Positions 34,379 through 37,591 of a stretch of DNA of 38,598 bases are shown piece after piece (the first letter of the stretch is position 1; every line of letters starts with the position of its first letter). The notes under the pieces are model-generated. The model was not told the origin of the DNA. It saw nothing but the letters and a program-made list of their open reading frames with translations, and ran no database searches. This DNA comes from an uncultured SAR86 cluster bacterium (GTDB lineage: Bacteria; Pseudomonadota; Gammaproteobacteria; Magnimaribacterales; D2472): NCBI GenBank assembly GCA_902591565.1, contig CACJBC010000010.1:1-38598 (forward strand), read 5' to 3'. The position numbers were made by a program, and so were the translations under genes.

Positions 34379-34487
34379 ATAATTTTTTTATAAAAAATTA
34401 AAAAACTATAAAAATTATTTTTAAAAAAAGATTTAAATTTTATACACAATAAAGATTGTAGTGACTAGTATGTGTTTTTTTAATGTA

Positions 34488-34520
34488 TATAATTTTAAGG
34501 GTATGCAATTAAAAGGAGAG
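34488..34520 (+). promoter_or_regulatory. Possible -10 element and strong RBS for the DUF805 gene
   Basis: TATAAT at 34488-34493 in the AT-rich 146-base gap after the P450 gene, followed by AAAGGAGAG (34512-34520), a strong Shine-Dalgarno by the standards of this window. No good -35 is seen at the right distance. Confidence 0.35.
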
Positions 34521-34524
34521 AGTT

Positions 34525-34899
34525 ATGAGCATGAAAGAGTCATTTATTTCAGTTTTTAAAAACTGGAGAAACTTTAGTGGTAGAGCATGTCGAAGTGAGT
34601 ATTGGTTTTTTGTGCTTTCAATTTTTCTCATTGCTTTCGTATTAGCATTTGTAGAAGCGTTGTTAGGAATCTTCAATGAAGAAATTGGTTACGGACCAAT
34701 GACCTTTTTATTTCAAATTATAACTATCATTCCGAGCATTTCTGTGACATCAAGAAGATTGCAAGATAGAGGCATTTCTGGATGGTGGCAATTGTCTTAT
34801 ATCTTAATTATTCCGATATTTGTAATTTTCATTTTATTAATGTTGCCTGCAAAAGAAGATGAAAATAAATGGGGCAGAAATCCATTACTGGAGACTTAA
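34525..34899 (+). CDS. DUF805 inner-membrane protein
   Basis: 124-residue DUF805 (YhaH/YhaI-type) membrane protein. NFSGRACRSEYWFFVLSIFL at residues 15-34 is the family signature, followed by SVTSRRLQDRGISGWW and a C-terminal KEDENKWGRNP. About three membrane helices. Function unknown. It precedes a secreted DUF2059 protein by 5 bases, so the two are probably co-transcribed. Confidence 0.9.
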   Translation: MSMKESFISVFKNWRNFSGRACRSEYWFFVLSIFLIAFVLAFVEALLGIFNEEIGYGPMTFLFQIITIIPSISVTSRRLQDRGISGWWQLSYILIIPIFVIFILLMLPAKEDENKWGRNPLLET

Positions 34900-34904
34900 A
34901 ACTT

Positions 34905-35366
34905 ATGAATAAAATCTATATTTCTTTACTACTAATTTTTAACACTTATATAAGCGCAGACGAGATTTCTGTTGATGAGATGGTAGATTTCATTGTTCAA
35001 GAACAATTCCTATCACAACAAGAAGATACAATGAAAAATTCTATGCATACCATGATGGAGTCAATGGGTTTGAGTGTAAAAAGCAAAGCAATGAGCGATT
35101 TCTTAGATCCTCTTATTAATGAATACATAAGCAGCATAGAGAAAAAAGTTCCTGCTCTGTATAAAGATATTTATTCTGATGATGAAATAACAGCACTCTA
35201 TAATTTTATGAAAACCAAGGAGGGGACCTCTATCAACAGCAAACAATCTCTTATGGTTGAGAAGACCATGCTCATGGTTAGTGAAGATGCGGTTAAATTG
35301 AGTGAAAGTATAGGAATTGCATTTCAAGAAAATCCTGAATTGATTCAGTCTTTAATGAAGCAATAG
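34905..35366 (+). CDS. DUF2059 secreted protein
   Basis: Signal peptide (MNKIYISLLLIFNTYISADE) and a helical DUF2059 domain with DEITALYNFMKTKEGTSINS and VEKTMLMVSEDAVKL. The frame is open to 34869, but the ATG at 34905, with GGAGAC about ten bases before it, gives the signal peptide and 153 residues. Function unknown. It is the last gene before the tRNA-Phe-flanked island: its stop lies 19 bases from the left direct repeat. Confidence 0.85.
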   Translation: MNKIYISLLLIFNTYISADEISVDEMVDFIVQEQFLSQQEDTMKNSMHTMMESMGLSVKSKAMSDFLDPLINEYISSIEKKVPALYKDIYSDDEITALYNFMKTKEGTSINSKQSLMVEKTMLMVSEDAVKLSESIGIAFQENPELIQSLMKQ

Positions 35367-35385
35367 TCATTCTAAAGGGTTTGAA

Positions 35386-35431
35386 TGGTGCCCAGAGGTG
35401 GGATCGAACCACCGACACAAGGATTTTCAGT
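35386..35431 (-). repeat. Distal att repeat: truncated tRNA-Phe 3' copy
   Basis: Forty-six bases identical to 37516-37561, equal to tRNA-Phe nucleotides 31-76 including the CCA end. Similarity fades over the next nine bases (about 6 of 9 match) and the 5' half of the tRNA is absent, so this is not a functional tRNA. Confidence 0.93.
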
Positions 35432-35479
35432 TCTTGACTCGAAAATAAAAACCTCATAAGAATGCATGTATCAGAGGTT

Positions 35480-35501
35480 ACTGTGCATATTACTGTTCAT
35501 A
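35480..35501 (+). repeat. Two tandem 10-mers at the island's left inner end
   Basis: ACTGTGCATA (35480-35489) and ACTGTTCATA (35492-35501), same orientation, starts 12 bases apart. The second continues into ATTTAAAT and forms the left arm of an imperfect 18-bp inverted repeat with 37442-37460. The remaining left flank (35432-35479) shows no gene. Possible arm-type recombinase sites; function inferred only. Confidence 0.65.
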
Positions 35502-35516
35502 ATTTAAATTTAAAAA

Positions 35517-36416
35517 TTAAGTTTCTTTAAAAGCAGAATCAAACTTTTTAAAAAAATCTCCAAGTTCTTCAAAGTTTGAATCATCTATTTGGATTTCATT
35601 TAAAATCTTTTCTATATTTTTTCCAACCTCATTACCATTAACTGATAATGGATTATCAAAAATAAGTTTTGCATCAATTTGATTTGTTGAAACAGACTTT
35701 GACCATTTCACCCAAACAGACAAAGGTCTATTTCCATCCCACTTATTTTTATTCACTCTATAATTTATTCCTTTGCACGCAAAATATAAATCGACCTTAG
35801 GGGCATAATCTGAAATTGCCTGAATCTTTTCAGCATAATCTTGAATAGTTTTTTCTTTGCTATCTGTAACAATTATGTAATTTGATATGCCTGAATCTTT
35901 TACCTTTACCCCGTCAATCAGAGCATCTTTTTTTTCTTTAGGCAGCGACGTACCAGCATAAAAATCAATTTTTTCATCATTTGTGAGATTTAATTTAGAT
36001 GATAAAAATCCCCCTTTACCTTTACCAACTTCAAATTTCCAACCAATTCTTATATTTTTATCCTTCCCTCTATAGTAAATAAGTTTATTCTTATAAAAAA
36101 TATCTTTAATTTTTAGTAACTCCTCACTTATTCTTTTTTGAGCATTTTCTCCAAATATTTGCCTAAGTCTTTCTAATTTAATCTTATTAGCAACAAACCA
36201 ATAATTAGTCTGCTTTATTGAAAACTTAAACTCTTTTTCCTTCCCATTTAAACTTTTTGCTTTTACATATAGGTCTGTTTTACATTCACCATTTGCGGAT
36301 ATGGTAGGTTTTTCAGATTGAATTACTTTATATGTCTCACCGTCAAAATTAAAACTTAACCCTCTTTTAAAAAAAGATTGGACTCTATCTTCTGTTTTTA
36401 TAAATGTTTTTACCAT
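35517..36416 (-). CDS. Probable type II restriction endonuclease partner (unrecognised family)
   Basis: 299-residue protein with no family I can name. A PD-(D/E)xK-like arrangement is visible: GECKTDLYV (Glu44, Asp48), then a beta-strand pair ending FKFSIKQTNYW with Lys68. The SIKQ/SIKHN style resembles R.HaeIII and related nucleases, although the rest does not. Being divergent to a solitary cytosine methyltransferase within one island, a cognate endonuclease is the simplest reading. The frame is open to 36626, but that part is antisense to the methyltransferase; the ATG at 36416 (MVKTFIKTED) is chosen. The C-terminal half is Lys-rich and compatible with DNA binding. Confidence 0.72.
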   Translation of the reverse strand: MVKTFIKTEDRVQSFFKRGLSFNFDGETYKVIQSEKPTISANGECKTDLYVKAKSLNGKEKEFKFSIKQTNYWFVANKIKLERLRQIFGENAQKRISEELLKIKDIFYKNKLIYYRGKDKNIRIGWKFEVGKGKGGFLSSKLNLTNDEKIDFYAGTSLPKEKKDALIDGVKVKDSGISNYIIVTDSKEKTIQDYAEKIQAISDYAPKVDLYFACKGINYRVNKNKWDGNRPLSVWVKWSKSVSTNQIDAKLIFDNPLSVNGNEVGKNIEKILNEIQIDDSNFEELGDFFKKFDSAFKET

Positions 36417-36423
36417 TTTAGAA

Positions 36424-36448
36424 AGATAGCATCTATGAGAAGATATCT
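36424..36448. promoter_or_regulatory. Twin palindromes between the divergent R-M genes
   Basis: The 34-base gap between the two start codons holds AGAT-AGC-ATCT (36424-36434) and the perfect palindrome AGATATCT (36441-36448), 17 bases apart from start to start. No C-protein gene is present, so these could be sites where the methyltransferase or another factor balances expression. Promoters for both genes must extend into the opposite coding region. GAGAAG (36438-36443 region) serves as a plausible ribosome site for the methyltransferase. Confidence 0.4.
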
Positions 36449-36450
36449 CC

Positions 36451-37455
36451 ATGAAGATAAGTTCTTTTTTTACAGGCGCAGGTGGACTAGATTTAGGTTT
36501 TAAAAATGTAGGTTCACAGATCTTATATGCTAATGAATTTGATAAAAGTATATGGAAAACATTTGAAAGAAATTTTACAAAAAAATCAAATACATTCTTA
36601 GATAAAAGAAGCATTACTGAGGTCAATGCAGATGAGGTTCCAGATTGTGATGGAATAATTGGTGGACCGCCATGTCAATCATGGAGTGAAGCAGGCGCAC
36701 TTAGGGGAATAGAGGACAAGAGAGGTCAATTATTCTTTGATTTCATAAGAATACTCAAAGCAAAAAAACCAAAGTTTTTTTTGGCAGAGAATGTATCAGG
36801 TATGTTAGCAGCGAGACATTCAGAAGCACTTAAAAATATAATTACCTTATTTGAAAAAAGTGGATATATAGTTTCATATAAACTCTTGAATACCAGCGAC
36901 TATGGCGTACCACAGGATAGAAAAAGGGTAATTTTCGTAGGTTATAGAAAAGATTTAAAACTTAAATTTACTCACCCTGAACCATTGGCATCTTCAAAAG
37001 ATGAAAAGTTAACTTTAAGGGATTCTATTTGGGATCTCAGGAACAATGCTCTACCAGCAAAAGAAAAAAATAAATCAAATCTAGAAAAATGCAAAATACC
37101 GAATCATGAATATATGATTGGAGGTTTTTCAACAATATTTATGTCAAGAAATCGAGTAAGAGCATGGGATGATCAATCATTTACCATTCAAGCAGGGGGC
37201 AGGCATGCTCCAATTCATCCTCAGGCGCCTGAAATGTTGTTTGTCGAAAAGAATAAGAGAGTATTTGTTCCTGGAAAAGAAAAACTATATAGAAGATTGT
37301 CTGTTAGAGAATGTGCAAGAATTCAAACCTTCCCAGATAATTTTATTTTTGATTATGAAAATATTGCAGATGGTTATAAGATGATTGGCAATGCTGTCCC
37401 AGTAAAATTTGCTGAAGTTTTAGCAAATACAATTAAAAATGATTTAAATTTATGA
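36451..37455 (+). CDS. DNA (cytosine-5) methyltransferase, M.HaeIII-like
   Basis: 334-residue m5C methyltransferase with all key motifs: [13 protein letters not shown] (SAM), [14 protein letters not shown] with catalytic Cys75, VI AENVSG (113-118), VIII QDRKRV (155-160), [15 protein letters not shown] and [13 protein letters not shown]. From memory it aligns along its length with M.HaeIII, including the target-recognition part ([27 protein letters not shown]), so modification of GGCC is the best guess. The stretch [11 protein letters not shown] differs from M.HaeIII, which leaves room for another target. The start ATG reproduces the M.HaeIII N-terminus. The stop codon lies inside the right-hand inverted repeat. 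Confidence 0.93.
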
Positions 37456-37486
37456 ACAGTAAAGTCGCTGTTCATAACTGTTCATA
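37442..37486 (+). repeat. Right-end repeat cluster with 9-bp hairpin
   Basis: Holds ATTTAAATTTATGAACAGT (37442-37460), the inverted partner of 35492-35509 with one extra T, then GCTGTTCATA (37467-37476) and ACTGTTCATA (37477-37486) in tandem. TATGAACAG (37451-37459) and CTGTTCATA (37468-37476) can form a perfect 9-bp hairpin with an 8-base loop right at the methyltransferase stop. It could terminate transcription (no T-run follows directly) or bind a recombinase. Confidence 0.65.
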
Positions 37487-37515
37487 AAATCATATTTTGA
37501 AAAATGCTTTAAGAG

Positions 37516-37591
37516 TGGTGCCCAGAGGTGGGATCGAACCACCGACACAAGGATTTTCAGTCCTTTGCTCTACCAACTGAGCTATCTGGGC
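37516..37591 (-). tRNA. tRNA-Phe (anticodon GAA)
   Basis: Complete 76-nt cloverleaf with encoded CCA. The acceptor stem pairs GCCCAGA with TCTGGGC, the D-loop is AGCTCAGTTGGTAGAGC, the anticodon loop CTGAAAA gives GAA, and the T-arm is GGTGGTTCGATCCCACC. Its 3' 46 nucleotides are duplicated at 35386-35431, so this gene is the attachment site of the adjacent island and its present 3' half may have come from the element. Confidence 0.97.

Follow-up and report, generated by a model that had tools for sequence, protein, structure and literature searches.

Cis-mobilizable elements (CIMEs) are described as units that keep the attachment sites attL and attR, are without genes for integration or transfer, and occur in tandem at one target gene (PMC5704250, PMC3146451). 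Small tRNA-targeted cassettes with a direct repeat of a tRNA fragment and variable content are reported from the additive flexible genomic islands of Ca. Actinomarinales (PMC7771536) and Ca. Methylopumilus (PMC10872708), and exchange of cassettes between genera is reported for Actinomarinales (PMC7771536). In addition, clusters of attC sites lacking an integron integrase (CALINs) are described as arrays of integron cassettes that depend on an outside integrase, and phage-inducible islands, phage-inducible chromosomal minimalist islands (PICMIs), virion-encapsidated integrative mobilizable elements (VEIMEs) and tycheposons as small integrated helper-dependent elements (PMC11389934); PMC12324425 concerns a different element. 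Here we describe a unit of 2.13 kb at the tRNA-Phe gene of an uncultured SAR86 cluster bacterium. It lies on a stretch of 38,598 nucleotides (CACJBC010000010.1, contig C10 of a 1.07-Mb assembly in 34 contigs that is 83% complete), and this whole stretch is called the window throughout. The unit is probably a non-autonomous integrative cassette, consisting of an attP site and a minimal restriction-modification (R-M) cargo, that is moved in trans.

The unit is bounded by a perfect 46-bp direct repeat, 35386-35431 and 37516-37561, with a start-to-start distance of 2,130 bp. The intact tRNA-Phe(GAA) gene, the only tRNA gene that ARAGORN finds in the window, occupies 37516..37591 on the minus strand, and its 3′ part, nucleotides 31-76 including the encoded CCA, forms the proximal copy (37516-37561, minus strand). 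The distal copy (35386..35431, minus strand) is identical in sequence to the same nucleotides, as an earlier note on this DNA had stated. A core-type site of 10-7-10 layout, GAGTCAAGAA-CTGAAAA-TCCTTGTGTC, was recognized by pattern match at the distal end (35414..35440, minus strand). Its overlap, 35424-35430, coincides with the anticodon loop and is presumably 7 bp long; the inverted 10-bp arms are imperfect. About 71 bp from the overlap stands a P-arm pair, TATGAACAG / TATGCACAG, with a spacing of 12 bp (35481..35501, minus strand). At the other end, two direct copies of TTATGAACAG, 10 bp apart, form the P′ arm (37468..37487, minus strand), an assignment for which the exact-site count was also used, and an inverted copy on the plus strand (37450..37459) overlaps the methyltransferase stop codon. 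The unit is compact, since the P-arm repeats end approximately 15 bp from the endonuclease stop. By sequence, then, the unit has a core site and arm-type sites in both arms, as a tyrosine-integrase element has, and it encodes no integrase according to the open reading frame (ORF) list and to phmmer, tblastn and hidden Markov model (HMM) searches, in agreement with the earlier note.

Only two main ORFs are present, and they diverge from a 34-bp gap when the ATG at 36416 is taken as the endonuclease start, which is our choice, the longest frame reaching 36626. The first, on the plus strand (36451..37455), encodes a HaeIII-like C5-cytosine methyltransferase of 334 aa (Pfam DNA_methylase, 4.2e-97). 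The closest solved protein is the HaeIII methyltransferase (E 1.1e-130), and because the alignment with M.HaeIII is nearly full-length and the homology includes the target-recognition part, GGCC is the likely predicted target. The second, on the minus strand (35517..36416), encodes a type II restriction endonuclease of 299 aa (PADLOC REase_II, E 2.2e-38). For this protein we found no Pfam match above the cut-off, no convincing solved relative, and no relative in IMG/VR. A homologue (38.5%) adjoins a HaeIII-like methyltransferase at L039, one of 35 loci, several of which are short. The cargo thus matches what the earlier note had proposed, a cytosine methyltransferase and a divergent endonuclease only, on the evidence of PADLOC, Pfam and the HaeIII methyltransferase match.

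Hereafter, genomes are numbered with G, loci with L, genera with g and families of the order with f; the genus sample comprised 18 genomes, the family (f1) sample 107 and the order sample 203. tRNA-Phe was located in 17 of the 18 genus genomes. In five of these 17 (G010, G012, G014, G001 and G004) the P450 gene that flanks the window locus directly adjoins tRNA-Phe, and these are therefore empty sites. Other cargo stands between the same repeats in three genomes: a C5 methyltransferase in G007 that differs from that of the window, as does its partner gene, two tandem units in G009 (two other methyltransferase genes; DUF805), and an alternative oxidase in G011 (L069:6039-6656, Pfam AOX 1.1e-66). 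No integrase was detected in the units of G007, G009 and G011 by tblastn and six-frame HMM search. Both outcomes on which the earlier note had based its comparison of relatives, empty sites and exchanged cargo, were thus obtained, so the arrangement is not the same in all relatives; a larger island combining this cargo with an integrase was not present in what was searched. A block that reads as metal-handling, judged from ORFs in L067, L069, L072 and L074, lies between P450 and tRNA-Phe without a repeat in L072, L073, L074 and L076, and to the left of the units in L067 and L069. This block may be an old eroded element, because in G129 (L182) a similar first gene stands between two repeats.

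The window unit has many counterparts. When the 107 family genomes were searched with tRNA-Phe, at least 29 of them had a partial copy of the distal type. In total, 33 integrase-less elements of 0.7-6.3 kb (median 1.8 kb) were collected at tRNA-Phe in 29 genomes, 28 of them from 25 family genomes and five from four genomes of f2 and f3. In other genera the tRNA-Phe loci that they occupy have different neighbours, and tandem units occur in G009, G071, G087, G142 and the window. Not counted as elements were a solitary repeat (G017:C3), two cases at contig ends (G076 and G106), and second distal copies in G054 (4 mismatches) and G129. The solitary repeat (L075:5021-5066) is of the distal type, is accompanied by a P arm and lies near tRNA-Ser on a contig other than that of tRNA-Phe; it may stem from a rearrangement or mark a secondary site of insertion. 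At least 12 of the 33 elements carry a DNA methyltransferase gene (G000, G007, G009a, G025, G036, G044, G068, G078, G087a, G101, G121 and G142b), and the other cargo includes alternative oxidase and unknown proteins. A protein family of approximately 107 aa recurs in nine of the 33 (e.g. L136:12463-12792); the one member tested had no match in Pfam, PADLOC or PHROG, and the family is a candidate new defence or anti-defence protein.

Past the tRNA-derived part, the distal copies run into sequence that the tRNA lacks but the elements have in common. The core has the 10-7-10 layout with the anticodon-loop heptamer at its centre, and its 10-bp arms are perfect inverted repeats in G007, G022, G065 and G094. 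A core pattern designed so that this tRNA cannot match it was found in 14 of the 107 family genomes and in 18 of the 203 order genomes, spanning three families, and the reversed pattern used as control gave 0 in every genome listed. Paired repeats were then counted at positions which were chosen after seeing the data, with random windows drawn from the same loci and G066 excluded. A P-arm pair 12 bp apart and starting 70-73 bp from the overlap is present in 19 of the 33 integrase-less elements versus 0.2% of random windows, and a P′-arm pair 10-11 bp apart and starting 28-41 bp from CCA in 14 of 33 versus 0.4%.

The arm repeats are 9-10 bp long and paired, and their sequence varies between elements (TATGAACAC, TTTGAACAG, GGTGAACAG, TTTGAATAC and TATGCACAG). 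The two arms of one element agree nevertheless: the mean longest shared string was 9.0, compared with 7.38 (sd 0.29) when the arms were permuted, and none of 20,000 permutations reached the observed value (27 elements, after G100 and G071b had been dropped as duplicates). Agreement was also seen in four of five elements examined later, and 14 of the 33 integrase-less units have individually matched arms. Within the 107 genomes, TTATGAACANTTATGAACA occurs in exactly six copies, each at the proximal end of a tRNA-Phe element.

The whole assembly of the window genome, at its 83% completeness, gave two Phage_integrase matches, one of which passes the NCBIfam XerD cut-off, while the other is best to XerC and falls just below the XerC cut-off. 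The tRNA-Phe-type recombinase that the earlier note had envisaged elsewhere in the genome was thus not among them, and these two proteins are the only candidates that this genome offered as a helper. In 24 of the 29 family genomes with a distal repeat, all Phage_integrase matches were Xer-sized and Xer-scoring, individual Xer typing being limited to the two matches of the window genome. A six-frame search of the 33 elements with an HMM built from 12 tyrosine recombinases gave a best E value of 0.36, and the same HMM recovered both positive controls, the integrases of G066 and G116. For integrase remnants in the 33 elements, the best stray tblastn match had E 0.21 and phmmer gave none. In the family scan, which covered 77 of the 90 cargo ORFs, those of at least 90 aa, Phage_integrase was not among the 25 families listed of 52 Pfam families.

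Three elements with the same tRNA-Phe repeat do carry an integrase: G066 (f1; 9.5 kb, complete), G116 (f2; 8.5 kb, complete) and G166 (f3), whose contig ends before the tRNA. Integrase-less units thus stand to integrase-bearing ones at 33 to 3 in the sample. The three integrases form one family (44-58% identical), which we presume to be P4-like, and the start of each gene adjoins the P arm. Pfam recognizes the arm-binding domain (PF13356) in those of G066 and G166, and only the catalytic family in that of G116. Paired repeats stand in both arms of G066 (AAGTCATCA); those of G116 are GTGTGAACC on the P side and TGTGAAC on the P′ side, and the P-arm repeat of G166 is AAGGCATCAT. The G116 element shares cargo relatives with integrase-less elements, for example 61% over 212 aa with G046. 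A protein of approximately 460 aa (49% identical), possibly a replication protein, occurs together with the integrases in G066 and G176 (L147:7787-9184 and L212:14244-15629).

To the left of the R-M unit, 34379..35385 (no strand assigned) probably represents an earlier element of this type, in tandem, that has since eroded, its distal repeat included; it encodes a secreted-like protein of 152 aa (DUF2059, weak match) and a DUF805 protein. Its sequence is 88% identical over 467 bp to cargo of G100 and G087b (88.4% for G100, of g9), and its proximal end begins like those of G078, G087b and G121. Because relatives of its genes are element cargo elsewhere (DUF805 in G009b; DUF2059-like in G022, G071b, G087b and G100), and because its distal end, read by eye, resembles that of G009b up to the expected start of the P arm, we conclude that the R-M cassette has apparently landed at tRNA-Phe beside an older cassette with an eroded distal repeat. 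The units follow each other in the same order in G087, which belongs to another genus: first a unit with a HaeIII-like methyltransferase, and then a DUF2059-like one. Neither Pfam nor PADLOC gave a match for the 256-aa gene next to the G087 methyltransferase.

Cargo was also compared across genera. G007 (g1) and G094 (g9) are 95.7% identical over 775 bp, compared with approximately 78% over up to 2 kb for homologous g1/g9 flanks, and G007 and G068 (g7) are 88.4% identical over 1,410 bp, no g1-g7 flank being among the pairs listed. These identities indicate that cargo has moved between genera.

We searched for a helper in several places. The non-Xer integrases of the genus share a piece with tRNA-Met (G001), tRNA-Ser (G006 and G014) or tRNA-Arg (G002), and that of G017:C2 is a fragment at a contig end with no tRNA on the piece. 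Among genomes with a distal repeat, the integrase of G087:C3 lies near tRNA-Leu and that of G044:C5 near tRNA-Ser, whereas the contig of G050:C7 is short and holds neither a tRNA nor the tRNA-Phe core. Eight further integrase pieces of the order (G180, G162, G176, G169, G179, G152, G154 and G130) were without the tRNA-Phe core. Comparison of the window's distal repeat and P arm with the phage collection returned 11 records in which the match is limited to the 36-46 bp that derive from the tRNA, and in the four IMG/VR matches to TTATGAACANTTATGAACA no tRNA-Phe sequence stands within 160 bp upstream. In L143 (1790-1816) and L144 (3393-3419), contigs that read as T7-like phages, an attP with the tRNA-Phe core of another host lies beside a tyrosine integrase of 288 aa, and the L144 integrase is approximately 57% identical to integrases of HTVC019P-group pelagiphages. 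Dense TTATGAACA-type repeats that look like iterons occur on an IMG/VR contig (L161:11371-11624) that reads as a P4-like satellite.

Several observations weigh against the reading as a cassette moved in trans. No excision was observed, and no helper with matching arm sites was found; of the earlier note's proposal of a helper-moved, non-autonomous cassette, the missing integrase and the targeting of tRNA-Phe stand, with the paired arm repeats at both ends as a further point in its favour, and the actual helper is the part that was not found. IMG/VR gave 0 matches to the exact repeat and 0 to the 3′ end of this tRNA-Phe. The two core matches obtained there, on T7-like phage contigs, are not claimed as helpers, because their tRNA end and arm sequences differ. 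The arm geometry of G066 and G116 is also somewhat different (pairs 11 bp apart, at -76/-85 and +46), so these integrases and that of G166 are regarded as relatives of a helper and not as proven helpers. Since this geometry is unlike that of the main cassette group, the helper of the window cassette is probably another, unsampled integrase of this kind. Of 29 elements, 18 have no individual arm match, and the 11 that match include G066; the TTAACACAC group (G091, G082, G055 and G051) has P′ repeats only, and the arms of G068 carry different repeats. Such one-armed or mismatched units may be hybrids or eroded units, and many may be immobile hybrids. Among the cross-genus cargo pairs listed, many are at approximately 70-83%, hardly or not closer than the flanks, and between the methyltransferase regions of the window and G087 the identity is just 75.5%, lower than for the flanks, so a transfer between these two would not be recent. 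Most of the genomes surveyed are incomplete, and outside f1 the integrase-less elements were detected through the core pattern alone, which biases that part of the sample.

Among other explanations, the one that survives best, although we regard it as improbable, is that the elements are decayed islands, that is, classic CIMEs in which the integrase was deleted and the remnant can move, if at all, only in cis together with an adjacent element. In favour of this view, the site also holds larger elements with an integrase, G066 and G116 (8.5-9.5 kb), which have some cargo in common with the integrase-less ones; tandem stacking is as described for CIMEs (PMC5704250); and several units are without one arm. 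However, none of the 33 elements contains an integrase remnant by tblastn, phmmer or six-frame HMM search, although such larger elements occupy the site. Decay would also have to account for the individually matched arms of 14 units, for the excess of integrase-less units over integrase-bearing ones, for the presence of Xer-like proteins only in most host genomes examined, and for cargo that moved between genera. An origin by decay from complete islands is possible for some of the units.

Another reading, quite unlikely, takes the paired arm repeats for replication iterons that serve the initiator of a helper, and the insertion at tRNA-Phe for a secondary event. This idea draws on the repeats of G101, G129 and G025, which equal GGTGAACAG, a sequence that we take to be the P4 type I iteron, on the repeats of L161, and on the protein of approximately 460 aa in integrase-bearing elements, which could be an initiator. 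The position of the repeats argues otherwise, because in each of the two arms they lie at a set distance from the core, like integrase arm sites, and they match across both ends of one element; the integrase-bearing elements have the same bilateral layout.

Very unlikely, too, is homologous recombination between conserved tRNA flanks after DNA uptake, with the repeats as fossils. Most genomes examined have no resident integrase besides Xer-like proteins, and the flank of the locus is conserved between g1 and g9, both in line with this view; the occurrence of elements in other genera, where the neighbours of tRNA-Phe differ, and the arm sites kept in many elements are not. Insertion by host XerC/XerD is hardly credible even though Xer-like proteins are the sole Phage_integrase matches in 24 of the 29 distal-repeat genomes, since the core is the 10-7-10 anticodon arm of a tRNA and is unlike dif, and separate arm-type sites of changing sequence suit integrases with an arm-binding domain, such as those of G066 and G166 by Pfam.

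The reading as a non-autonomous cassette, therefore, is the one that we prefer. From the anatomy, the recurrence, the matching of arms in part of the elements, the exchange of cargo between genera and the lack of a detected integrase in a genome that is 83% complete, we infer mobilisation in trans through a circular intermediate, the kind of helper, a route of transfer and the function of the cargo. The circular cassette would carry attP, in which the core copies the anticodon arm and the 3′ half of tRNA-Phe and arm-type sites stand on both sides. By analogy with the integrases of G066, G116 and G166, a tyrosine integrase provided in trans would recombine the cassette into tRNA-Phe at its anticodon loop, and the 3′ half that the cassette brings along would rebuild the tRNA. 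Cassettes arriving later would use this tRNA as well and form tandem stacks, and the cargo would give a selectable trait, here probably GGCC restriction-modification.

We are evenly divided over a wider reading, in which attP-only cassettes, mostly without mobility genes, form a class throughout the order and a network for the exchange of defence genes; they would be the tRNA-based counterpart of integron cassettes, moved by the tRNA-Phe integrases of passing helpers, and the arm sites, changing yet matched within a cassette, would record the helper family to which that cassette is tuned. Cassettes of this kind offer a testable mechanism by which genomes of approximately 1 Mb with few resident integrases could swap restriction systems and metabolic genes, the cassettes paying only for the landing site and renting the integrase. 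The "tRNA direct repeat" signature of additive islands could then be replaced by a defined attP, and the arm sequence may tell which helper is required. No report of this element family was found in the literature searched, which lay outside most subscription journals. CIMEs and the tRNA-repeat cassettes of additive islands are already known from the descriptions cited (PMC5704250, PMC3146451, PMC7771536, PMC10872708). The apparent novelty lies in the attP anatomy of units that mostly lack an integrase, in arms that are matched yet changing, and in the recurrence in three families of the order.

Compared with HaeIII restriction-modification, the window methyltransferase aligns nearly full-length to M.HaeIII, whereas the endonuclease has no Pfam family and no demonstrated kinship to R.HaeIII. 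P4-like satellites are small integrated elements that depend on a helper. The integrase-bearing relatives resemble satellites in having integrases with an arm-binding domain, whereas the window cassette differs from satellites of the P4 or phage-inducible chromosomal island type in being without an integrase, primase, regulator or packaging gene. Like CALINs as described, cassettes of the window type would depend on an integrase from elsewhere, but the site at which they would recombine is an attP derived from the tRNA and provided with arm repeats. The window unit shares with the cassettes of additive islands the position at a tRNA, the end formed by a tRNA-fragment repeat and the variable content in relatives; those islands are characterized by their repeats, and the accounts cited here do not extend to a core and arm-type anatomy or an integrase family (PMC7771536, PMC10872708). 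Together with these cassettes, CIMEs as they are described are the closest known kind: the window unit is flanked by putative attL and attR (46-bp repeat, core and arm repeats) and has two genes, none of them for integration or transfer. Unlike in CIMEs, 24 of the 29 host genomes examined show only Xer-like tyrosine recombinases, and integrase-less units are here the rule, go down to 0.7 kb in size, and in 14 of 33 cases have matched arms.

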